In this document: positions 29,328 through 44,396 of the stretch, piece after piece
How the letters are laid out: every line of letters begins with the position of its first letter
Numbering within the stretch: the stretch's first letter is position 1
From: Pseudomonadota bacterium
GTDB taxonomy: Bacteria > Pseudomonadota > Gammaproteobacteria > Steroidobacterales > SZUA-146
DNA: 64,000 nucleotides
Assembly (NCBI GenBank): GCA_039028935.1
Contig: JBCCHD010000001.1
Location: 62,001-126,000, forward strand
Reading direction: 5' to 3'
Notes under the pieces: model-generated
The model's input: only the letters and a program-made list of their open reading frames with translations
What the model was told of the DNA's origin: nothing
The model's database searches: none
Made by a program: the position numbers and the translations under genes

Positions 29328-30176
29328 ATGCCTCACTCAATGAAATCCGTGGCGATCACGCGTCGTCGTGAAGCTGACTGCGCGATCGATAACGACCACG
29401 TGGCAACCGAAGAGCCGATGGAAGTACGCCTTCGCCATCAAGTGGACGGTAAGTGGACCGAGCGCAGTATCTCGATCACGATGCGTACGCCCGGGAATGA
29501 TGCGGAACTCGCTGCCGGCTTTTTGTTCACCGAAGGTATTGTGCGTGACGCGTCGGACATCGCGCACGCTGAGCACTGCGGTCCGCCCAACGCCAGCGGC
29601 CTGCGCAATGTGGTCAAAGTAACCCTCGCGGAGGGCGTCACGGTCGATGTCGGCAAGCTCATGCGCAATTTTTACACGACGTCCAGTTGTGGCGTGTGCG
29701 GCAAAAGCTCGCTCGAGGCGCTCGATGTGGAAACTCGATTCACCATTCCGGCGCCACGACCGATGTTGACCGATGCTGCGCTCATTGATGCCCCAGCGAA
29801 ACTGCGCGCCACACAGTCTCTGTTTGATTCCACCGGGGGGATCCACGCCTCGGGATTGCTCGATCGCGCCGGTGATTTGCTGGCAGTGCGGGAGGATGTC
29901 GGGCGTCATAATGCCCTGGATAAACTCATAGGACACGCCCTGGGGGAGCGGGCCCTGCCTCTGTCGGAATGTGCGGTATTGCTCAGTGGCCGGGCGAGTT
30001 TCGAGCTGTTACAGAAGAGTTTGATGGCTGGAGTGCCGATTGTGGCGGCGGTAGGCGCGCCGTCGTCGCTTGCAATAGAGTGCGCGGAAGCAAACAACAT
30101 GACACTGGTGGGGTTCCTGCGCGGTTCGGGGTTTAATGTCTACTCCGGTCCTGAGCGCATTATGTTTGATCGCTGA
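29328..30176 (+). CDS. fdhD: Formate dehydrogenase accessory sulfurtransferase FdhD
   Basis: This 282-aa protein is the sulfur carrier that hands sulfur from a cysteine desulfurase to the molybdenum cofactor of formate dehydrogenases, which is required for activity. It carries the conserved reactive pair in SSCGVCGKSS, the family's GNDAELAAGFLFTEGIV near the N-terminus, and the nucleotide-binding-like EDVGRHNALDKLIGHAL. The length fits. It is the first gene of the operon and ends 13 bp before fdsG. In many fds operons this gene (fdsC) lies after fdsA instead, so the order is a local variation. ATG 29340 is an alternative start. Confidence 0.95.
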   Translation: MPHSMKSVAITRRREADCAIDNDHVATEEPMEVRLRHQVDGKWTERSISITMRTPGNDAELAAGFLFTEGIVRDASDIAHAEHCGPPNASGLRNVVKVTLAEGVTVDVGKLMRNFYTTSSCGVCGKSSLEALDVETRFTIPAPRPMLTDAALIDAPAKLRATQSLFDSTGGIHASGLLDRAGDLLAVREDVGRHNALDKLIGHALGERALPLSECAVLLSGRASFELLQKSLMAGVPIVAAVGAPSSLAIECAEANNMTLVGFLRGSGFNVYSGPERIMFDR

Positions 30177-30189
30177 CCCGAGAACCAAC

Positions 30190-30663
30190 ATGACACCGGA
30201 GCAGATAAAACAGCGTACAGCTATCATCGTGGAGTCCATGCAGTTTCTGCCGGGTGGGCTACTGCCTATCTTGCATCGCCTGCAGGATCAGCTTGGCTAT
30301 GTGCCTGAGGAATCGGTGCCCGTGGTGGCTAAAGCGCTTAATCTATCTCGCGCTGAAGTGCACGGTGTAATCAGTTTCTATCATCATTTTCGCCGCACGC
30401 CGCCCGGTCGTCGCACCTTGTTTGTGTGTCGTTCGGAAGCGTGTCAGTCGGTCGGTGGGCGCGCTTTGGAGCAGCATGCCAAAGAACGACTCGGCATCGA
30501 TTGGCATGAAACGACAACGGACGGGAGCGTCACGCTCGAGCCGATTTATTGTCTCGGCAACTGTGCCTGTGCGCCCGCGGTGATGCTCGATGAGCAGGTG
30601 GTCGGTCGGGTGACATCCGGACGACTCGACGCGCTGATCGATGACCTCAGCGCAACTGACTGA
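30190..30663 (+). CDS. fdsG: NAD-dependent formate dehydrogenase gamma subunit FdsG (NuoE-like)
   Basis: This 157-aa thioredoxin-like [2Fe-2S] subunit is equivalent to NuoE of complex I. The four cluster cysteines are present as CRSEAC (Cx4C) and CLGNC (Cx3C). The N-terminal helical part ends in EVHGVISFYHHFRRTPPG, the standard NuoE signature. It starts at ATG 30190, where the preceding frame lies inside fdhD. It passes electrons between the flavin/iron-sulfur subunit FdsB and the complex. It is followed by fdsB after 35 bp. Confidence 0.95.
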   Translation: MTPEQIKQRTAIIVESMQFLPGGLLPILHRLQDQLGYVPEESVPVVAKALNLSRAEVHGVISFYHHFRRTPPGRRTLFVCRSEACQSVGGRALEQHAKERLGIDWHETTTDGSVTLEPIYCLGNCACAPAVMLDEQVVGRVTSGRLDALIDDLSATD

Positions 30664-30698
30664 ACACTGGGACTCAAGTTTCCCTCGGGCGAAATGAC

Positions 30699-32237
30699 AT
30701 GACGACACTGTCTGCTTACATCTCACTTGATACAACCAGTCGCTCGATTGGCGCCGACGAGGTGGCCGCGTTGCTGCAAGCATCCGCCGTTCAACACGGT
30801 ACATCGGTGTCGCTCACGCGAACCGGCACGCGCGGTCTGTTCTGGCTTGAACCGATGATCGAGTTCGACACCGACGCGGGGCGTGTCGCGTTTGGTCCGC
30901 TTGACCCCGGCGATGTGCGCGCGGTGTCGACAGTGATCTCGCCAAAGGGTGAACTCAATACCGAGCACCCGGCCTATCTTGGGTTGCTCGATGAGGTGCC
31001 CGAATTCGCCGGCCAGCTTCGCCATACCTATTCGCGAGTGGGCGTTACCGACCCGCTGTCATTGGCGCAGTATCGTGCGCACCACGGCTACGAGGGCCTG
31101 CAGCGCGCGCTGTCAATGAACAGTGACGATATCGTCGAAGAAATTGCGAATTCGGGCCTTCGTGGTCGTGGTGGCGCCGCGTTTCCAACGGGTATCAAAA
31201 TGCGCACTGTGGCGGCGCAAAACGACACGCAAAAGTACATCGTCTGCAATGCGGACGAGGGCGACTCCGGCACGTTTGCGGATCGCATTATTATGGAAGG
31301 CGATCCGTTCTTGCTCATCGAGGGTATGACGATTGCGGGTGTGGCGTGTGGTGCCACTCAGGGTTACATCTATGTGCGATCCGAATACCCGCAAGCCATC
31401 ACTTTATTGAACAAGGCGCTGGCAACGGCCTATGAGCACCAGCTGTTGGGCGAAAACGTGATGGCTTCGGGCAAACAGTTTGATCTCGAAGTGCGCAAGG
31501 CAGCCGGTGCGTATATTTGCGGCGAGGAAACCTCTCTGCTCGAAAGCTTAGAGGGCAAACGCGGCCTTGTGCGGTTTAAGCCGCCGCTGCCGGCGATCGA
31601 GGGACTATTTGGTAAGCCGACGCTCATCAATAATGTGGTGAGTTTGGTATCAATGCCTGAAATCGTGCGACTCGGTGCGGATAGTTATCATGCCCTCGGC
31701 GTTGAGCGATCCCGCGGAACACTCACGGTACAGCTCGCTGGCAACGTCAAGAAAGGGGGCCTATTTGAGGTGCCGTTTGGCACAGCACTGCGTGACGTGA
31801 TTGAGCAGTTCGGTGGCGGCACGTTGACTGGGCGACCGGTCAAAGCCGTGCAAATTGGTGGCCCGTTAGGCGCATTTGTGCCGCCTGCCCATTTTGATAT
31901 GCCGCTGGACTACGAAGCCTTTGCTGCGCGTGGTGCCATGATCGGTCATGGCGGGATGGTGGTGTTTGACGACACGGCGGACATGGGCGAGATGGCGCGG
32001 TTTTCGATGGAATTTTGCGCGATCGAGTCATGTGGCAAATGCACACCTTGCCGCATTGGTGCGGTGCGGGGTACGGAAGTGATTGACAAAATACGACGTG
32101 GCGAAGAGGTTGACGCACATCGCATTTTGCTGCGGGATTTGTGTAATACAATGGTCGATGGTTCGCTGTGTGCGCTGGGCGGCATGGCGCCGTTTCCGGT
32201 GCTGAGCGTTATGGACCACTTTGAGGAAGAGCTCTAA
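30699..32237 (+). CDS. fdsB: NAD-dependent formate dehydrogenase beta subunit FdsB (NuoF-like)
   Basis: This 512-aa diaphorase subunit takes electrons to FMN and reduces NAD+. An N-terminal thioredoxin-like region of about 100 residues comes first. The FMN/NAD domain follows, with SGLRGRGGAAFPTGIKM, CNADEGDSGTFADRI and GAYICGEETSLLESLEGKRG. The C-terminal [4Fe-4S] motif is ESCGKCTPCRIG plus the later CALGG cysteine. It is the soluble counterpart of NuoF fused with a NuoE-like N-terminus, as in other Fds enzymes. The stop codon overlaps the fdsA start by one base (TAATG), implying coupled synthesis. Confidence 0.96.
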   Translation: MTTLSAYISLDTTSRSIGADEVAALLQASAVQHGTSVSLTRTGTRGLFWLEPMIEFDTDAGRVAFGPLDPGDVRAVSTVISPKGELNTEHPAYLGLLDEVPEFAGQLRHTYSRVGVTDPLSLAQYRAHHGYEGLQRALSMNSDDIVEEIANSGLRGRGGAAFPTGIKMRTVAAQNDTQKYIVCNADEGDSGTFADRIIMEGDPFLLIEGMTIAGVACGATQGYIYVRSEYPQAITLLNKALATAYEHQLLGENVMASGKQFDLEVRKAAGAYICGEETSLLESLEGKRGLVRFKPPLPAIEGLFGKPTLINNVVSLVSMPEIVRLGADSYHALGVERSRGTLTVQLAGNVKKGGLFEVPFGTALRDVIEQFGGGTLTGRPVKAVQIGGPLGAFVPPAHFDMPLDYEAFAARGAMIGHGGMVVFDDTADMGEMARFSMEFCAIESCGKCTPCRIGAVRGTEVIDKIRRGEEVDAHRILLRDLCNTMVDGSLCALGGMAPFPVLSVMDHFEEEL

Positions 32238-35104
32238 TGGCTAGCTGGAAACGGGCAGAACCTGAACACGACTACGGCACGCCAGAGGTGTTGGCGTCGA
32301 CGTTTGTCACGCTCACGATCGATGGTGCGGAAGTGACGGTGCCAGAGGGCACGTCGGTCATGCGCGCAGCCGCGATGAATGGCGTCAGCATCCCTAAGCT
32401 GTGTGCCAGTGAAGATCTTGAGCCGTTTGGCTCCTGCCGGCTGTGTTTGGTCCAAATTGAAGGACGCAAAGGCTTTCCAGCATCGTGCACAACCGAAGTG
32501 GCCGAGGGCATGGTGGTCAACACGCACAATTCGGATATTGCGCGTCTGCGTCGCAACGTGATGGAACTCTACATCAGCGACCACCCGCTCGACTGCCTAA
32601 CCTGTTCAGCCAACGGCGACTGTGAACTTCAGGACATGGCCGGTGCCGTGGGGCTGCGCGAAGTGCGCTACGGTTACGACGGCGCCAATCATATTAATGA
32701 CGAAGCGGATCGATCGGGCGCCTACTTTGACTACGACCCTAGTAAGTGCATCGTCTGTTCCCGCTGCGTGCGTGCATGTGAGGAAGTGCAGGGCACGTTT
32801 GCGCTGACCGTGGACGGTCGTGGGTTCGTGTCTCGGATCGCCGCCAGTCAGAACGATAACTTCGCTGATTCCGAATGTGTATCGTGTGGGGCGTGCGTCA
32901 AGGCGTGTCCGACCGCAACGCTCATGGAAAAGTCAGTCATTGAAATGGGCCAACCTGAAAACGCCACCATTACCACGTGCGCCTATTGCGGCGTCGGCTG
33001 TTCGTTTCGGGCCGAAATGCAAGGCGATCAGCTTGTTCGCATGGTGCCCAACCGCGATGGGCATGCCAATCACGGGCACTCGTGTGTGAAGGGACGCTTT
33101 GCATTTGGTTATTCCAATCATCCTGATCGCATTACAACGCCCATGATTCGTGAGTCGATTCATGAGCCATGGCAACAGGTTGATTGGGAAACGGCCATCG
33201 AATTTACCACCAATCGACTCAAGCATATTCAGAAAAAATATGGGCGACGATCGGTGGGTGGCATTACCTCGTCTCGCTGCAGTAACGAAGAAACCTATCT
33301 CGTGCAGAAGTTTATTCGGGCGGGCTTTGGTAATAACAACGTCGATACCTGCGCCCGCGTCTGTCATTCACCTACCGGCTATGGCCTGAAAACCACCCTT
33401 GGCGAATCGGCGGGCACCCAGGCCTTCGATTCGGTAATGAAGTCGGACGCGATAATGGTCATCGGGTCCAATCCTACCGATGCGCATCCGGTGTTTGGTT
33501 CGCAAATGAAACGTCGCATTCGACAAGGTGCCAAGGTCATCGTGGTTGATCCACGCCAGATCGATCTGGTGAGCAGTCCGCACGCCAAAGCCCATCACCA
33601 CCTGCAGCTCAAGCCGGGCACTAACGTGGCCATCATTAACGCGCTGGCGCATGCGGTGATTGATGCGGGTCTAGAAGATCGCGCCTTTATCGCCGAGCTC
33701 TGCGAAGACGAGGCCTTTGATATCTGGCGTGAATTTATTATGCGCGAGGAAAATTCACCCGAGCACCTGGAGGCCTTTACCGGCGTACCGGCAAGCGACG
33801 TGCGGGCCGCGGCGGTGACGTTCGCCAGTGTACCTAACGGTGCTATTTACTACGGACTGGGAGTCACCGAGCACAGTCAAGGCTCCACGATGGTGATGGG
33901 GATTGCCAATCTTGCCATGCTCACCGGTAATGTAGGTCGCGAAGGGGTTGGCGTAAATCCCATGCGCGGACAAAACAACGTACAGGGCTCGTGCGACATG
34001 GGCTCATTCCCGCACGAACTGCCGGGCTATCGCCATCTTTCCGATGTGGATTCGCGTCGACTGTTTGAGCGTGAGTGGGGCGTTAATCTCGATCCCGAAC
34101 CGGGCTATCGGATTCCCAATATGTTCGATGCGGCTGTCGAGGGCAGTTTCAAAGCGCTGTACATTCAGGGCGAAGACATGGCGCAATCCGACCCCGATAC
34201 TCAGCATGTACACAAAGCGCTGTCATCGATGGAGTGTGTCATCGTGCAGGATCTGTTTCTCAATGAAACCGCCAAGTTCGCGCATGTATTTTTACCGGGA
34301 TCCTCATTCCTCGAAAAAGACGGTACGTTCACCAACGCAGAGCGACGTATTTCTCCCGTGCGAAAGGTGATGGAGCCACGGTCTGGCCTGGCCGACTGGG
34401 AAATCACGATGGCGTTGTCGAACGCGATGGGTTATCCCATGACCTATACCCACCCAAGCGAAATTATGGATGAGATTGCGCGTCTGACCCCAACATTTAC
34501 CGGCGTTAGCTACGCGCGGTTGGACGAGCTGGGCAGCATTCAATGGCCCTGCAACGAGACGGCGCCAGAGGGCACACCCACCATGCATGTCGACGGGTTT
34601 GTGCGAGGCAAGGGTTATTTTGCGCCCACACCGTTTGTCGAAACCACCGAACGCTCGACGCGCAAGTACCCACTGCTGATGACCACGGGTCGCATACTGT
34701 CGCAATACAATGTGGGCGCCCAAACGCGCCGCACAGCAAACATGCAGTATCACGACGAAGACGTGCTTGAAATGCATCCGGCTGATGCGGAGACCCGCGG
34801 TATCAAAGAAGGCGACTGGGTTGGCATCAAAAGTCGCGCTGGAGAGACCGTAATGCGTGCGGTGATGTCAACCAAGGTGCAGCCGGGTGTTGTGTACACC
34901 ACCTTCCACCATCCGCACTCGGGCGCTAATGTGGTGACGACGGATAATTCCGATTGGGCCACCAATTGCCCTGAGTACAAAGTGACGGCGGTAGAGGCCT
35001 ATCCGGTCAGTCAGCCGTCGGAATGGCAGCGCAACTTCCAGAAGTTTACGGATCAGCAGATTGACTACCTGGGCTCGGCGATGGCTGAGCAAAAAGTGCG
35101 CTAG
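32237..35104 (+). CDS. fdsA: NAD-dependent formate dehydrogenase catalytic alpha subunit FdsA
   Basis: This 955-aa molybdenum or tungsten bis-MGD enzyme oxidises formate to CO2. An N-terminal NuoG-like [2Fe-2S] ferredoxin domain (CASEDLEPFGSCRLC) and a His-Cys3 cluster segment (HPLDCLTCSANGDC) come first. Two [4Fe-4S] motifs follow (CIVCSRCVRACE and CVSCGACVKACP), then the FDH-type cluster CAYCGVGC. The metal ligand lies in DTCARVCHSPTGYG, a cysteine version with no selenocysteine codon. The C-terminal dinucleotide-binding domain (NGLRPRTTAN-type region, here NVGAQTRRTANMQYH) is complete. The enzyme is cytoplasmic and forms an Fds(ABG) complex with the neighbouring subunits. Confidence 0.97.
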   Translation: MASWKRAEPEHDYGTPEVLASTFVTLTIDGAEVTVPEGTSVMRAAAMNGVSIPKLCASEDLEPFGSCRLCLVQIEGRKGFPASCTTEVAEGMVVNTHNSDIARLRRNVMELYISDHPLDCLTCSANGDCELQDMAGAVGLREVRYGYDGANHINDEADRSGAYFDYDPSKCIVCSRCVRACEEVQGTFALTVDGRGFVSRIAASQNDNFADSECVSCGACVKACPTATLMEKSVIEMGQPENATITTCAYCGVGCSFRAEMQGDQLVRMVPNRDGHANHGHSCVKGRFAFGYSNHPDRITTPMIRESIHEPWQQVDWETAIEFTTNRLKHIQKKYGRRSVGGITSSRCSNEETYLVQKFIRAGFGNNNVDTCARVCHSPTGYGLKTTLGESAGTQAFDSVMKSDAIMVIGSNPTDAHPVFGSQMKRRIRQGAKVIVVDPRQIDLVSSPHAKAHHHLQLKPGTNVAIINALAHAVIDAGLEDRAFIAELCEDEAFDIWREFIMREENSPEHLEAFTGVPASDVRAAAVTFASVPNGAIYYGLGVTEHSQGSTMVMGIANLAMLTGNVGREGVGVNPMRGQNNVQGSCDMGSFPHELPGYRHLSDVDSRRLFEREWGVNLDPEPGYRIPNMFDAAVEGSFKALYIQGEDMAQSDPDTQHVHKALSSMECVIVQDLFLNETAKFAHVFLPGSSFLEKDGTFTNAERRISPVRKVMEPRSGLADWEITMALSNAMGYPMTYTHPSEIMDEIARLTPTFTGVSYARLDELGSIQWPCNETAPEGTPTMHVDGFVRGKGYFAPTPFVETTERSTRKYPLLMTTGRILSQYNVGAQTRRTANMQYHDEDVLEMHPADAETRGIKEGDWVGIKSRAGETVMRAVMSTKVQPGVVYTTFHHPHSGANVVTTDNSDWATNCPEYKVTAVEAYPVSQPSEWQRNFQKFTDQQIDYLGSAMAEQKVR

Positions 35105-35447: not shown

Positions 35448-37139
35448 ATGACTTCCTCCGATCTTCTTCGTGTCGCCTACTTAGGGCCGGCCGGTAGCTA
35501 CACCCAGCAGGCGGCACAGAAACGCTTTAGCGACGCGCGTTTGGTGTCGTGTGCGTCGATCGAACAAGTGTTTGCTGCGGTGGGCAATGCCGAGGCCCAG
35601 TATGGTGTGGTGCCGATCGAGAACATGCTGCAGGGCTCAGTTACCGAGACGCAGGATGGACTCTACACGTGGCACGACTCGGTACGCATACACGATATGC
35701 TGGTGATGCCGATCGCCCATGCGTTGGGCGGCGTCGGCGTATCGCTCGACGCGGTACGTGATGGCATACAGACTGTCTATTCCAAAGATCAGGCGCTCAA
35801 ACAGTGTTCGGATTATCTAGAGCGCGTATTTCCCAATGCGACCTTGATTGAAGTGGACAGCACCAGCCTCGCGGCAGAACGCGTCATGTCGGCGAACGAT
35901 CCGACATTGGCCGCCATTGCCAGCGAGGCGGCGTTCGCTCAAGTCGGTCTGACGGTACTCGATACGCAGATCGGCAATATACGCGACAACAAAACTCGCT
36001 TTGCAGTGCTTGGGCCACCCAATCCGGATTTGGCCAATGCAACAGGCAGTGACGCCACCGCCTGTGTTATTTATCCACCAGGCGATCGCGTCGGTATTTT
36101 GGAAGAAATTCTCGCGGTAATCAGTCGTGATCACGGACTGAGTTTGTCGTCGATTCACTCTCGCCCTGATCGTCGCGGTGCGTTTCGATTTTATATAGAA
36201 ATTGAAGGGCATCTGAAAGATGCCGCCGTTCGACACTGCATCGACGCACTTCGCCGAAAACTGGCCGATGATCTGGCCGAAATTTTGGTGTTCGGTAGCT
36301 ATCCCAGGTGCCCCTTTAACCCGCCCAAGCTCAGCACAATCGGCATTGTCGGCGGTACGGGCAAGATGGGAGCCTGGTTTCGCGAGCTGTTTGAAAAAGC
36401 AGGCTATGAGGTGTTGTTATCGGGACTTAACAGCGAATTGAGCGTCGAGCAGTGCGTCAAGCAATCGCAGGCGGTATTGCTTAATGTTCCGATCACCCAT
36501 TCGGTTCAAGTTGCGCGAGACGTGGCGGCTTGGCTGGAGCCTGGGCAGCTCGTGCTCGACAACACGTCGGTGAAGGGGCAGGTGATGGATGCCCTTCTCG
36601 ACGCTGTGCCAGAGGGCGTTGAAGTGCTGGGTATGCACACCATCTTTGGTCCAGAAGTCGACTCGTTGCGTAAGCGGAATACCGTGTTTACTCGCACGGC
36701 CAAGTCCGGCGAATTGGCTGAAGAATTTGAACACATTTTTTATAAATACGGTGCGCAGCTGAGCTATACCGATGAAGCCAATCACGACCAGCAGATGGCT
36801 TTTCATCAGAATCTTGAGCACTTTACCAAGCTGGTGTTGGCGGAAGTGCTGTCTAAACATGTGGCCGACCCATCGGGCACGGTGGCCTACAGCTCGCCAA
36901 ATTCGCGAGCGTCGCTGCGTACGATGGCGCGCGTCCTGAGGGTGGATGCGAAATTACTCGCGGATATTCAGGCGCACAACGAGCAAGGCCCGGAAATGCT
37001 TCGCCAATTCATGACTATTGCGCATGAGTTGCTCGCGCTGATTGAGAACAAAGACTTTGATGCGTTGCTCCAACGCATACAGTTCAACTCAGACGCACTG
37101 GGAGAAGATCTGCTGGCAGAGCTGCTTTATAACGAGTAG
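35448..37139 (+). CDS. Fused prephenate dehydratase-ACT-prephenate dehydrogenase
   Basis: This 563-aa protein joins two competing branch enzymes. Residues about 8-190 form a prephenate dehydratase: YLGPAGSYTQQAAQKRF, VPIENMLQGSV and the catalytic KTRFAVLG near 181-188. An ACT regulatory domain follows (about 200-280), with HSRPDRRGAFRFYIEIEGH in place of the usual ESRP site. From about 295 to the end lies a TyrA-like dehydrogenase with the Rossmann loop GIVGGTGKMG, DNTSVKGQVM and GMHTIFGPEVDSL, whose histidine is the expected catalytic one. No chorismate mutase domain is present at either end, unlike the enteric PheA and TyrA fusions. The product should convert prephenate to both phenylpyruvate and 4-hydroxyphenylpyruvate, with phenylalanine feedback through ACT. 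It is preceded by 116 bp after fdsD and appears to be transcribed independently. Confidence 0.88.
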   Translation: MTSSDLLRVAYLGPAGSYTQQAAQKRFSDARLVSCASIEQVFAAVGNAEAQYGVVPIENMLQGSVTETQDGLYTWHDSVRIHDMLVMPIAHALGGVGVSLDAVRDGIQTVYSKDQALKQCSDYLERVFPNATLIEVDSTSLAAERVMSANDPTLAAIASEAAFAQVGLTVLDTQIGNIRDNKTRFAVLGPPNPDLANATGSDATACVIYPPGDRVGILEEILAVISRDHGLSLSSIHSRPDRRGAFRFYIEIEGHLKDAAVRHCIDALRRKLADDLAEILVFGSYPRCPFNPPKLSTIGIVGGTGKMGAWFRELFEKAGYEVLLSGLNSELSVEQCVKQSQAVLLNVPITHSVQVARDVAAWLEPGQLVLDNTSVKGQVMDALLDAVPEGVEVLGMHTIFGPEVDSLRKRNTVFTRTAKSGELAEEFEHIFYKYGAQLSYTDEANHDQQMAFHQNLEHFTKLVLAEVLSKHVADPSGTVAYSSPNSRASLRTMARVLRVDAKLLADIQAHNEQGPEMLRQFMTIAHELLALIENKDFDALLQRIQFNSDALGEDLLAELLYNE

Positions 37140-37371: not shown

Positions 37372-39258
37372 ATGTCATTGATTCGGATGGACGACATTTC
37401 GCTCGCCTTTGGCGAGCAGGTGATTTTTCGGCAGGCCAATTTCGTGCTTGAGGAGGGCGAGCGCGTTTGTCTTATTGGTCGCAACGGGGCGGGCAAATCC
37501 ACGCTCATGAAGCTTATTACCGGTGAGTATCAGACCGATGATGGGGAGATTCATCGGCAACCGGATGTGCGGATCAGTCAACTGCGGCAGGAGCTGCCGG
37601 AGTACTCAGAGCTTACAACTCGTGACGTGGTGGCCACAGGGCTGGCGCGGCAAAGAGAGTTGATTGATCGGTTCGAGGCGTTATCTGCCGACACCGGACG
37701 TGCCAATCAGCTCAATGAGCTCGAAGCGCTTCAGCGACAAATCGAAGCGGCGGGTGGCTGGGAACCCGGTCAGCAAGTGGACACCATGATCGCCCAGCTC
37801 GAGCTCCCAGCGGATAAGCGATTGTGTGATTTATCGGGTGGCTGGCAGCGACGTGTGGCGCTCGGACGCGCGCTGGTGTCCAAACCGCACATATTGATGC
37901 TTGACGAGCCAACTAATCACCTGGATATCAGCACGATCTCATGGCTCGAACGGCGCGTTCAGTCGTACGACGGGAGTGTGGTGTTTATCACTCATGATCG
38001 CTTGTTTTTACAAAAACTGGCAACACGCATCGTTGAGCTGGATCGCGGGCAACTGATCAGTTGGACGGGTGATTACAAGAAATTCTTGCGGCACCGCGAT
38101 GAAGCCAATACCACCGAGGATGCGCACAACGAATTGTTTGATAAAAAACTCGCTCAGGAGGAGGCATGGATTCGGCAGGGCATTAAGGCAAGGCGTACGC
38201 GCAATGAGGGTCGAGTGCGGGCGCTACAGGCAATGCGCGAAGAGCGCGCCGCGCGCATTAAGCGGGCTGGCAAAGTTCGCATGCACATCGAGGGTGCGGG
38301 CGCGTCGGGCAAGAAAGTCATTACCGCGCGTAACATCACGCACGGTTACCATGGCGAAACGCTGATTAAAGGTTTTTCGCTAAAAGTCATGCGGGGAGAC
38401 CGTATTGGGCTGATCGGGAATAATGGCGTGGGCAAAAGCACATTGCTGCGAATATTGCTTGGTCAAATCGAACCGGATGAAGGCTCTGTCAAGCTCGGTA
38501 CACATCTTGAGACCGCCTATTTCGATCAGATTCGACGCACACTCGACGGCGATCAGACGATCGTGCGCTATATTGGCGAAGGCAAAGACTACATCACGTT
38601 GGGCAGTAAGCAAACGCATGTGATTGGCTACTTGAAGAACTTCATGTTCTCGCCCAAGCGTTCAATGACGCCCATACGCGCGTTGAGCGGCGGTGAACGC
38701 AATCGAGTACTGCTGGCAAAACTGCTCACCCGTCCGGCCAACTTGTTAGTGCTCGACGAGCCCACTAATGACCTGGATGTCGAGATGCTCGAGGTGTTGG
38801 AAGAGCAGCTTGTGAACTACGACGGCACACTGATTATTGTGAGTCATGATCGACAGTTTTTGGATAATGTCGTCACGTCCGTGTTGGTCTTTGAGGAAGA
38901 GGGCAAAGTCGAACAGTACGTGGGGGGTTACAGCGACTGGCATAGACGAAACAAGAAACTGTTGATCAAAGACGAGCAGCAGGCCGCCCAGCGCAAGAAG
39001 GAGTCCGACACCGCGAGACGAAATGAGAAGCCTGCGCGAACCAAACTAACGTACAAGCTGCAGCGCGAGTTAAATGCTCTGCCGGAGACGATTTCGAGTC
39101 TCGAAGAGGAGGTCGAAACGCTGCGTCGCCAGACGCTGGCGGCGGGTTTTTATGAGCAAGACTATGAGCAGATGCAAAGCGTGCTTGATCGTTTGACGGC
39201 CGCCGAGACGGCGCTTAACGACGCCACGGAACGTTGGATTGAGTTGGACGATATGTGA
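37372..39258 (+). CDS. uup: ABC-F ATPase Uup
   Basis: This 628-aa protein has two tandem ABC domains and no membrane segments, as in ABC-F ribosome-associated ATPases. Walker A loops are GRNGAGKST and GNNGVGKST; the signature motifs are LSGGWQRR and LSGGERNR; Walker B strands are ILMLDEPTNHLD and LLVLDEPTNDLD. The linker between the domains is basic (RQGIKARRTRNEGRVRAL). The C-terminus is a coiled coil of about 75 residues (RELNALPETISSLEEEVETLR), the Uup feature that binds DNA or ribosomes. Uup is linked to translation and branch-migration functions and precise-excision suppression in E. coli. It lies 232 bp downstream of the PDT-PDH gene, an interval with no gene that I can see. Confidence 0.93.
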   Translation: MSLIRMDDISLAFGEQVIFRQANFVLEEGERVCLIGRNGAGKSTLMKLITGEYQTDDGEIHRQPDVRISQLRQELPEYSELTTRDVVATGLARQRELIDRFEALSADTGRANQLNELEALQRQIEAAGGWEPGQQVDTMIAQLELPADKRLCDLSGGWQRRVALGRALVSKPHILMLDEPTNHLDISTISWLERRVQSYDGSVVFITHDRLFLQKLATRIVELDRGQLISWTGDYKKFLRHRDEANTTEDAHNELFDKKLAQEEAWIRQGIKARRTRNEGRVRALQAMREERAARIKRAGKVRMHIEGAGASGKKVITARNITHGYHGETLIKGFSLKVMRGDRIGLIGNNGVGKSTLLRILLGQIEPDEGSVKLGTHLETAYFDQIRRTLDGDQTIVRYIGEGKDYITLGSKQTHVIGYLKNFMFSPKRSMTPIRALSGGERNRVLLAKLLTRPANLLVLDEPTNDLDVEMLEVLEEQLVNYDGTLIIVSHDRQFLDNVVTSVLVFEEEGKVEQYVGGYSDWHRRNKKLLIKDEQQAAQRKKESDTARRNEKPARTKLTYKLQRELNALPETISSLEEEVETLRRQTLAAGFYEQDYEQMQSVLDRLTAAETALNDATERWIELDDM

Positions 39259-41687: not shown

Positions 41688-44396
41688 ATGAACGCTTCAG
41701 ACGGTGAACAACTCACCGCGATCTTTTTTGGTGCGTGTGACCTCGATGGCGAGGAGCGTGAGCGCTTTCTCGATGAGCAGTGCGCGCACAACCCTGACCT
41801 TCGTGAACAAGTCGAGCGCTTGCTGGCGGCGGGCGATGATCTGTCTGAAGCCGAACAAACCCATATTGTCGCGCGTGCGATTCACGATGCTGCGGGCAAG
41901 TTCGCCAGAGAGCAGATGCCCGAGCATATAGGGCCCTATAAAATACTCGACGAGATTGGGGAGGGTGGCATGAGCGTGGTGTACGCCGCCCAGCAGCACG
42001 AGCCGGTTAATCGTCGCGTGGCGCTTAAGTTGATTCGCCCTGGCATGGACACGCGCGACGTGATCAATCGATTCGAGTCTGAGCGTCAAGCGTTGGCGGT
42101 GATGGACCACGTCAACATCGCCAAGATTTTTGACGGTGGCACGACGTCGGCGGGTCTGCCGTATTTTGTCATGGAGCTGGTGTCTGGCGAACCCCTCACC
42201 GATTACTGTGACGAACATCGACTGTCGATAAAAGCGCGTTTAAGTCTGTTTTGCGATGTGTGCGCGGCGGTACAGCACGCGCACCAAAAGGGTGTTGTGC
42301 ACCGCGACCTCAAGCCGTCGAACATACTGGTTAGCGAGCAAGATGGTGAGCCACTTGTGAAAGTTATCGACTTCGGTATCGCTAAGGCACTCGATGCAAC
42401 ACTCAACGACGACCCAACGGAAACGCGCTATGGGGTGGTGATGGGTACACCGACCCACATGAGTCCTGAACAGGCCTCGGGTCACGTGCACGACATTGAT
42501 ACGCGCACCGATGTGTACTCGCTCGGCGTGGTTCTGTTTCAATTGTTGACCGGACTGCTGCCTTACGAAATCGACAAAATTGGCAGCGACGCCATTCGCA
42601 AGTCGATCGAAGCGGGCGCAACCACACGACCCAGCGCCAAACTCAAACGAGACGATCAAGGCGAAAGCCTGGCACAAACTCGTCGTCTGAGTTTAAGCGC
42701 GTTGCTCAAGCATATTGAAGGCGACCTTGACTGGATCACGTTGCGCGCGATGGATGTCGAGCCTTCTCGTCGCTACCAAACCGTCAACGCCCTTACGCTC
42801 GATATCCAACACTTTCTTCAGGCTCGGCCCGTGACAGCGCGTCCCCCGAGCGCGGCGTATCTGGTTAGCCGATTTATCAAGCGCAATCGCAAGACTGTGT
42901 TGGCCGCCGGAGTGACCGTGGCGGCACTGCTGGCCGGCATCACAATGGCCACAATCGGTCTGGTGCGCGCTACCCAAGCAGAGCGCGTAGCGGTGGATAA
43001 ACAACGTACCGCCGAGAGCGCCAAAGAGTTTGTGGTGAGTATCTTCACGGCCAGCGATCCGGAGGCGGCGCTGGGTCGTCAGGTGTCGGCTAGTGATCTA
43101 TTGCGTCAAGGTGCCGCGCGCATCGATCAACAGCTTGATGATGAACCGGCGATTCAAAGTGAGCTCCTGCAAACGATGGGACGCGCATTTGAAAACCTTG
43201 CTCTCTACGATGACGCCGAGCCGTTGTTGAGACGCGCGGTGACGTTGGCCGAACAGGCGTATGGGCCGAACCATCTCGAGGTGGCCGCCGCACAGCAAGA
43301 GCTGGGTGAGGTGCTCTGGCGTACCGGGCGCTATGACGAGGCGAAGGCCGCGCATGAGCGCGCGCTTGAGATCATCGCGTCGGAGCTTGGCAGCGATCAC
43401 CCCGACTACGCGGTTAATCTTGCCAAGCTTGGCATGGCTTGGTTTCGGGAAGGTAACTTCGAAAAAGCGCAGAGCCTGTTCCAAGAAAGCCTCATGCTTT
43501 ATCAACGGCTAGGGCTAACCGACACGAGTGACTATGCCGACACGCTGAGTGACCTGGGTGGCGTCAAACTACGTCAAAATCGTCTAGATGAAGCGGCGGT
43601 AGACTTTCATGAGGCTTTGCGCGTGTGGCGTGAGAGCTTAGGCGACGTGCATCCAAATATTGCGACGGTGCTGTCGAATCTGGGCGCGGTGGCGGCCAAG
43701 CAGGGTAGTCATATTGAAGCCGCGCAATATTACGAGCAGGCGCTGGATATGCGGCGTACGTTGTATGGCGATAAGCCGCATTCTCAAACAGCGGTGTCTC
43801 TCAATAATCTCGCGTCTTTGTATTGGCGGCAAAACGACGTGGCCAGGGCGGAGCCCTTGTTCCGAGAATCGCTCGCCATGCGTCGAGCCGTGTTCGGAAA
43901 TACGTCGGTCGCGGTCGCGACCGGACTCAATAATCTCGCCTTGGTGCTGCTCGCCCGCGGTGATACCGACGCGGCGGAACAGGCCTATCGAGAAGCTCTA
44001 CAAGTGCGGCAGCTCGTACAAGGCGAAGATCATCCCAATGTCGGTATTACGCAGACCAATCTCGCCGCGGCACTCAATGCCAAGGGCGACTATTCGTCGG
44101 CCTTGCGAGAAAGCCGGGCGGCGATTACCGCGCTACAGCTCGCGCTGGGTCCGGCACATTGGCGGGTGGCGTCAGCGCGCAGCGTCCACGGTGCCGCATT
44201 AGTCGGTTTGGGCGAGTTTCTGGAGGCCGAGGCAGAGCTGGTACCGGCGTTTAGCGATATTCGCGCCGCACGCGGCGACAGTGATCGCTATACGCTTGAG
44301 GCGCTCGATCGGGTAGTGAATTTGTACGCCGCATGGGAGAATGGCGCTCCCGATGAAGACTATGCGGCGCTGCGCAACACGCTGGGTAGTCGTTAG
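41688..44396 (+). CDS. Transmembrane Ser/Thr protein kinase with C-terminal TPR repeats
   Basis: This 902-aa protein has an N-terminal cap of the kind found in ECF-linked kinases (EERERFLDEQCAHNPDLREQ). A Hanks-type kinase follows: glycine loop GEGGMSVVY (about 91-99), VALKLI, catalytic HRDLKPSN (about 204-211) and DFG (about 227). The activation-loop text GTPTHMSPEQASG is also intact, so activity is expected. A membrane helix lies at about 404-430. A C-terminal half of about eight TPR/Kelch-like 42-residue repeats (LSNLGAVAAKQGSHIEAAQY, LNNLASLYWRQ) follows and would sense or bind partners outside the membrane. No partner phosphatase or ECF sigma factor is encoded nearby. Confidence 0.93.
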   Translation: MNASDGEQLTAIFFGACDLDGEERERFLDEQCAHNPDLREQVERLLAAGDDLSEAEQTHIVARAIHDAAGKFAREQMPEHIGPYKILDEIGEGGMSVVYAAQQHEPVNRRVALKLIRPGMDTRDVINRFESERQALAVMDHVNIAKIFDGGTTSAGLPYFVMELVSGEPLTDYCDEHRLSIKARLSLFCDVCAAVQHAHQKGVVHRDLKPSNILVSEQDGEPLVKVIDFGIAKALDATLNDDPTETRYGVVMGTPTHMSPEQASGHVHDIDTRTDVYSLGVVLFQLLTGLLPYEIDKIGSDAIRKSIEAGATTRPSAKLKRDDQGESLAQTRRLSLSALLKHIEGDLDWITLRAMDVEPSRRYQTVNALTLDIQHFLQARPVTARPPSAAYLVSRFIKRNRKTVLAAGVTVAALLAGITMATIGLVRATQAERVAVDKQRTAESAKEFVVSIFTASDPEAALGRQVSASDLLRQGAARIDQQLDDEPAIQSELLQTMGRAFENLALYDDAEPLLRRAVTLAEQAYGPNHLEVAAAQQELGEVLWRTGRYDEAKAAHERALEIIASELGSDHPDYAVNLAKLGMAWFREGNFEKAQSLFQESLMLYQRLGLTDTSDYADTLSDLGGVKLRQNRLDEAAVDFHEALRVWRESLGDVHPNIATVLSNLGAVAAKQGSHIEAAQYYEQALDMRRTLYGDKPHSQTAVSLNNLASLYWRQNDVARAEPLFRESLAMRRAVFGNTSVAVATGLNNLALVLLARGDTDAAEQAYREALQVRQLVQGEDHPNVGITQTNLAAALNAKGDYSSALRESRAAITALQLALGPAHWRVASARSVHGAALVGLGEFLEAEAELVPAFSDIRAARGDSDRYTLEALDRVVNLYAAWENGAPDEDYAALRNTLGSR

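Follow-up and report, generated by a model that had tools for sequence, protein, structure and literature searches.

Fusions at the phenylalanine/tyrosine branch point normally join chorismate mutase to one of the enzymes that use its product. The window analyzed here, that is, the whole stretch of 64,000 nucleotides, carries a gene whose product joins the two competitors for prephenate, prephenate dehydratase (PDT) and prephenate dehydrogenase (PDH), and leaves the mutase out. This raises the questions of whether such a chain is genuine, whether both of its halves could work, where its prephenate is made, and what became of the enzymes that usually do these jobs in its host. The gene and its domains are located as follows.

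35448..37139, + strand: fused PDT-ACT-PDH gene, a single open frame from ATG to stop, 563 aa
35472..36017, + strand: PDT catalytic domain, residues 9-190; PF00800, E 1.8e-52
36045..36311, + strand: ACT regulatory domain, approximately residues 200-288; sub-threshold PF01842 match and fold match to the Phe-bound PDTs 2qmx/3mwb
36306..36335, + strand: inter-domain linker between ACT and PDH, residues ~287-296; from the alignment and the AlphaFold2 model
36336..36767, + strand: PDH nucleotide-binding domain, residues 297-440; PF02153, E 9.7e-10; GGTGKMG at 302-308
36768..37112, + strand: PDH dimerisation domain, residues 441-555; PF20463, E 9.6e-10

The PF00800 profile matched the fusion with 178.2 bits (curated cut-off 25.2) and was covered at positions 1-178 of 181, while PDH_N (PF02153) at residues 335-436 and PDH_C (PF20463) at residues 444-544 scored 38.6 and 39.1 bits, respectively (cut-offs 26.5 and 22). 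The Pfam ACT match at residues 213-261 reached 20.6 bits, short of the curated 27, and the NCBIfam prephenate dehydratase model spanned residues 8-286 with the ACT region inside. Pfam and NCBIfam both assigned a two-domain PDH to residues 297-552. Consistently, phmmer searches against solved structures matched PDTs to residues 8-292 and the Haemophilus influenzae TyrA to residues 297-544. An AlphaFold2 model built on a 39-row alignment (pLDDT 93.6, pTM 0.82), which superseded a 7-row model with a pLDDT of 68.9, folded as PDT, ACT, and PDH; in Foldseek searches its PDT half retrieved 2qmx and 3mwb (TM 0.82-0.85 by target) as well as 6vh5, and its PDH half 2pv7 (TM 0.81-0.82). The domain order that the first-pass annotation had read from the letters is therefore upheld by Pfam, NCBIfam, AlphaFold2, and Foldseek alike, and so is its claim that the protein lacks a mutase domain, as a CM_2 profile search of the fusion gave no match up to E 0.1. 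A mutase hidden between ACT and PDH was ruled out as well, since that linker is only ~10 residues long in the model, so that no mutase fits in the fusion. These results confirmed a genuine dehydratase-ACT-dehydrogenase protein without a mutase domain.

The distribution of the family was assessed by scanning 84,980 species genomes with sequence patterns that included the invariant KDQALKQC; this returned six further intact or contig-end-truncated copies and one frameshifted copy. The fusion is found in seven independent assemblies: the window genome, a gammaproteobacterial congener (G001, 75% identity to the window fusion), four Tectimicrobiota-type MAGs, and a Pacearchaeota contig, on which Rad50 and Mre11 of archaeal type are encoded as well. 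The Tectimicrobiota-type carriers are two Entotheonella, the Tectomicrobia KatS3mg131, one "Proteobacteria" MAG, and one "Nitrospinota" MAG (J063), the last two being placed by the genome collection in the same phylum as Entotheonella. One copy (L005) ends at a contig end, and that of KatS3mg131 (L009 8016-9699) is split by a frameshift. All five sampled genomes of this sponge-symbiont-type phylum have the fusion, compared with 1 of 279 in the archaeal phylum and 1 of 369 Gammaproteobacteria. Because of this last count, and because no other sampled family of the host order carries the fusion, the gene probably entered the host genus laterally. No full-length match was found among plasmid records, and no NCBIfam model has the PDT-ACT-PDH order. 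Nor did a search of the open literature, PMC1173090, PMC11237513, and PMC10520331 included, yield a description of this order. Thus, the large known family with the same order that the first-pass annotation had considered did not turn up in the genomes, NCBIfam, or that literature, and the fusion apparently represents a rare and undescribed family.

In the PDT tree the fusions formed one group (95/93, 98% of bootstraps), and so they did in the PDH tree (99/98); with both halves monophyletic, a single fusion event is indicated. The archaeal copy stood beside that of J063 in the PDT tree (98/97), which suggests a transfer of the fusion into the archaeon, and the gammaproteobacterial pair was sister to the Tectimicrobiota clade, not nested inside it. 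A Nanoarchaeota PDT without a PDH in frame (L017 7675-8596) also carried HSRP and grouped with the fusions (98/90), on a very long branch and with YTDF in place of the TRF triad. In the Tectimicrobiota-type genomes, nothing besides the fusion resembled a PDT or PDH below E 0.09, and a separate chorismate mutase gene was present in four of the five, the one examined encoding a 95-aa AroQ. Since no PDT or PDH other than the fusion was found there, both activities are probably needed in these organisms.

Whether both halves could be catalytically competent was judged from the following sites, all on the + strand and numbered in part by the Escherichia coli enzymes.

35613..35624, + strand: PIEN motif, residues 56-59; N59 = E. 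coli PheA N160
35781..35807, + strand: SKDQALKQC, residues 112-120, invariant in 7/7 fusions; S112 = E. coli S208, Q119 = E. coli Q215
35994..36002, + strand: TRF triad, residues 183-185 = E. coli T278-F280
36156..36167, + strand: HSRP ligand motif (canonical ESRP), residues 237-240
36636..36638, + strand: His397 = E. coli TyrA His197 (catalytic), from the alignment (PMC2954222)

By alignment, the PDT of the window fusion keeps the equivalents of E. coli E159 (E58), N160, S208, Q215, and T278-F280, the role of the last triad in PDTs having been described (PMC10845154); the position of His209 is occupied by Lys. In J063, whose only PDT is the fusion (L006 2242-3930), Ser stands where E. coli has Asn160, and Asn160 is therefore not strictly essential; the presumed importance of this residue rests on conservation counts. 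The canonical Phe motifs of the ACT domain, GAL and ESRP, were not found in the window fusion, which reads GIL and HSRP at these places. GI or GL replaces the GA of GAL in the fusions, and HSRP is present in six of the seven, with QSRP in the archaeal one. The HSRP reading of the first-pass annotation is thus correct, but the motif is not peculiar to this protein, occurring in its relatives and also in an archaeal PDT.

In the PDH half, the equivalents of Ser176, His197, His245, Asp246, His257, and Arg294 are invariant in 7/7 fusions; the window protein has His446-Asp447, His458 for His257, and Arg495 for Arg294. The roles of these catalytic residues have been described for the E. coli and H. 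influenzae TyrA enzymes, and E. coli His257 is needed for tyrosine inhibition, while in the H. influenzae structure tyrosine occupies the active site (PMC2954222). With His458 conserved throughout the fusions, a separate tyrosine control of the PDH arm is probable, which makes the idea of a single ACT domain setting the Phe/Tyr split unnecessary; that proposal of the first-pass annotation was speculation and found no support, and two independent controls appear at least as likely as control by a single ACT. The acidic NAD+ discriminator Asp (D32) is missing from the fusion PDH, with Ser or Gly at that place, and the Tectimicrobiota fusions have two Arg in the discriminator region that the gammaproteobacterial pair does not share. 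When the acidic discriminator is missing, NADP+ use becomes a candidate (PMC1173090), and the fusion PDH is accordingly a candidate for NADP+ use. Stretches invariant across the fusions included SKDQALKQCS, SRPD, and HQNLEHFTK, and dN/dS between the two Entotheonella copies was 0.12-0.13 in all three domains, that is, purifying selection acts on PDT, ACT, and PDH. With catalytic residues present in both, the two halves look active.

The genome of the window (G000, 96.9% complete) was compared with those of its congeners G001 and G002. Its inventory comprised one PDH, which is the fusion, two PDTs, and one chorismate mutase. This only mutase is part of a P-protein (mutase-PDT-ACT, 363 aa) on another contig, between gyrA and aroA, so that the aroQ gene for which the first-pass annotation had proposed to look exists as a domain of the P-protein beside gyrA. 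Its statement that the window holds no mutase gene may stand for the window, but not for the genome; likewise, of the expected absence of separate pheA and tyrA genes, only the tyrA part held, as no tyrA or T-protein (mutase-PDH) was found in this 96.9% complete genome but an AroQ-PheA P-protein is kept, with an altered PDT site. Most sampled relatives of the order carry a P-protein, and 23 yielded a PDH with an N-terminal mutase-like stretch (identified by eye), i.e., a T-protein. With the T-protein missing, the fusion is the sole tyrosine-branch candidate of the window genome. In G002 (84% complete) neither the fusion nor its ABC-F neighbor was seen, and a hisC-like aminotransferase, absent at that place in the window genome, lies between pheA and aroA (L062 6330-6462, L063 4932-6056). 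In G001 (L104, L117) the fusion is present and no chorismate mutase or P-protein was seen; the contig ends ~400 bp upstream of aroA, and no pheA lies in that interval.

The genes on both sides of the fusion, given for context only, are:

32237..35104, + strand: molybdopterin formate dehydrogenase subunit (fdhA), upstream neighbor
37372..39258, + strand: ABC-F ATPase, downstream neighbor

The fdhA gene is directly upstream of the fusion in G001 too, and the ABC-F protein, with 80% identity to its G001 counterpart and 47-65% to those of order relatives, is vertically inherited in the order. A vertical ABC-F gene and a recurring fdhA-fusion pair indicate a contig of the host. No compositional sign of transfer was detected, since GC and GC3 of the fusion (0.55/0.62) equal those of its neighbors; any transfer must therefore be old. 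The fdhA gene belongs to a formate dehydrogenase cluster (29328-35104) that looks NAD-linked, with FdhD, NuoE-like, NuoF-like, and the 955-aa molybdopterin subunit FdhA, and a 902-aa frame at 41688-44396 in the window appeared by eye to encode a Ser/Thr kinase and, after it, TPR-like repeats.

The reading that we favor, with a probability of about 0.66, is that the protein is a bifunctional Phe/Tyr branch enzyme that entered the genus laterally, and that loss of the T-protein and takeover of the dehydratase function followed. According to this reading, a separate AroQ chorismate mutase would supply the prephenate and the fusion would consume it in the cytoplasm, the N-terminal PDT converting it to phenylpyruvate for phenylalanine and the C-terminal TyrA-type PDH to 4-hydroxyphenylpyruvate for tyrosine. 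After the gammaproteobacterial genus had gained the fused gene, the native T-protein would have disappeared, and the PDT half of the P-protein would have come under relaxed selection, leaving the P-protein chiefly as a chorismate mutase. As in other PDTs, binding of an end product, probably phenylalanine, to the ACT domain would close the PDT, while tyrosine would inhibit the PDH directly at its active site, and cross-talk between the two arms would be possible.

Two P-proteins were available for the genus.

L001 1468-2559 (G000 contig 31) and L063 3734-4852 (G002): genus P-proteins with altered PDT site and intact mutase

In these proteins the PIENS motif reads PLEDF or PLETF, and YANQQ also occurs at the PDT site. 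The Asn160 position, which is N in 43/43 other PDTs, is D and T, and the His after Ser208 (His209), present in 42/43 others, is N; on the other hand, the Gln215 and Thr278 equivalents are kept. The columns without variation among 17 other P-proteins from the order were scored, with leave-genus-out controls. In the genus P-proteins 0/33 were broken in the mutase, 9/62 and 12/62 in the PDT, and 3/31 in the ACT, as against 1-6 in the PDT and 0-2 in the ACT of the controls. Consistently, PDT identity minus mutase identity was -1 and -3 points in the genus and +8 to +16 in the controls. Relaxed selection following a takeover would leave such a pattern, though the pattern is not proof. The PDT of the P-protein from the window genome still scores 177 bits and that of the genus may be active; between G000 and G002 the PDT halves are 81% identical with saturated synonymous sites, so that dN/dS within the genus was mostly not computable.

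The same data bear on the alternative that the two dehydratases are redundant isoenzymes, in which case the fusion would have replaced only the T-protein, the P-protein would still be the main active Phe enzyme, its PDT site changed yet functional, and the fusion PDT would be a second isoenzyme under different feedback control. Purifying selection on the PDT half of the P-protein, its retained ESRP and Thr-Arg-Phe, and the sole PDT of J063 that does without the Asn all speak for this. Nevertheless, the Asn160, Thr/Ser161, and His209 equivalents are changed in both congeners, although the first and the last of these are N in 43/43 and H in 42/43 other PDTs, and the surplus of broken columns is limited to the PDT/ACT part of the P-protein, so we consider redundancy a rather unlikely account. 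Improbable, too, is that the fusion acts wholly or partly on arogenate, as an arogenate dehydratase/dehydrogenase (ADT/ADH). Folds and motifs are common to PDT/ADT and to PDH/ADH, and TyrA enzymes are often of broad specificity (PMC1173090, PMC10845154), but the PDH half scores best with prephenate dehydrogenase models and the H. influenzae TyrA. A PDT half reduced to a regulatory scaffold, so that the protein would amount to a TyrA whose N-terminal control region is unusual, could account for the non-canonical ACT motifs (HSRP, and GI/GL for GAL) and the Lys at His209; it is very improbable, however, given that no other PDT was detected in the Tectimicrobiota-type genomes and that the window protein retains PIEN, S112, Q119, and TRF. 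An assembly chimera, a frameshift read-through, or a contaminant contig deserves hardly any credence, for although the related records are MAGs and the L009 copy is split by a frameshift, the frame and the conserved linker are common to seven independent assemblies, which refutes the artefactual joining of two genes raised in the first-pass annotation, and the recurring fdhA, the vertical ABC-F, and the matching GC/GC3 agree with this.

Beyond the favored reading of a laterally acquired branch enzyme, a broader one is offered tentatively, at somewhat short of even odds: the single-chain Phe/Tyr enzyme may be ancestral and sole in Tectimicrobiota and may have been passed on to one genus of Gammaproteobacteria and to an archaeon, displacing in that genus the T-protein and turning the P-protein into a mutase with a dead, possibly still regulatory, dehydratase. 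In the fused enzyme, a ligand at one arm may then shift the flux through the other. If true, a textbook bifunctional enzyme would have been replaced at the level of its domains in a gammaproteobacterium. The family also offers a natural experiment in which, after entry of a foreign enzyme, the resident bifunctional enzyme drifts in one half and stays unchanged in the other.

As the mutase lies outside the fusion, channeling of the mutase product cannot explain the joining of the two halves; possible reasons are a fixed 1:1 stoichiometry and shared regulation. Among known systems, the E. coli P-protein PheA (AroQ-PDT-ACT) shares the order of the PDT-ACT module and the Gln215 and Thr278 equivalents; the fusion differs from it in lacking the mutase, in the appended PDH, and in the changes of ESRP to HSRP and His209 to Lys. 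The T-protein TyrA of E. coli and H. influenzae (AroQ-PDH, TyrAc-delta class) includes the closest solved structure to the PDH half, 2pv7; this half aligns to E. coli TyrA with no gap after strand 2 and has the same catalytic His/Ser/Arg set, but AroQ is absent, the N-terminal partner is PDT-ACT, and no acidic NAD+ discriminator ends strand 2. The four-domain TyrA-AroQ-PheA-ACT protein of Archaeoglobus (PMC1173090), also in Huberarchaea (PMC11237513), likewise has both prephenate consumers and an ACT in one chain; it is the mutase-including triple fusion found only in these two lineages among archaeal fusions in a 2024 survey (PMC11237513), and the present fusion has the opposite order, with PDT first, and no mutase. 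The exported CM-CDT fusions (PMC10520331) are similarly rare in Proteobacteria and likewise join enzymes of the route from chorismate to Phe, but they are exported, include the mutase, use a PheC-type dehydratase, and have no dehydrogenase. Finally, TyrA is a fusion partner also in TyrA-AroF (EPSP synthase) and HisHb-TyrA (PMC1173090), where its partner is not the competing dehydratase.
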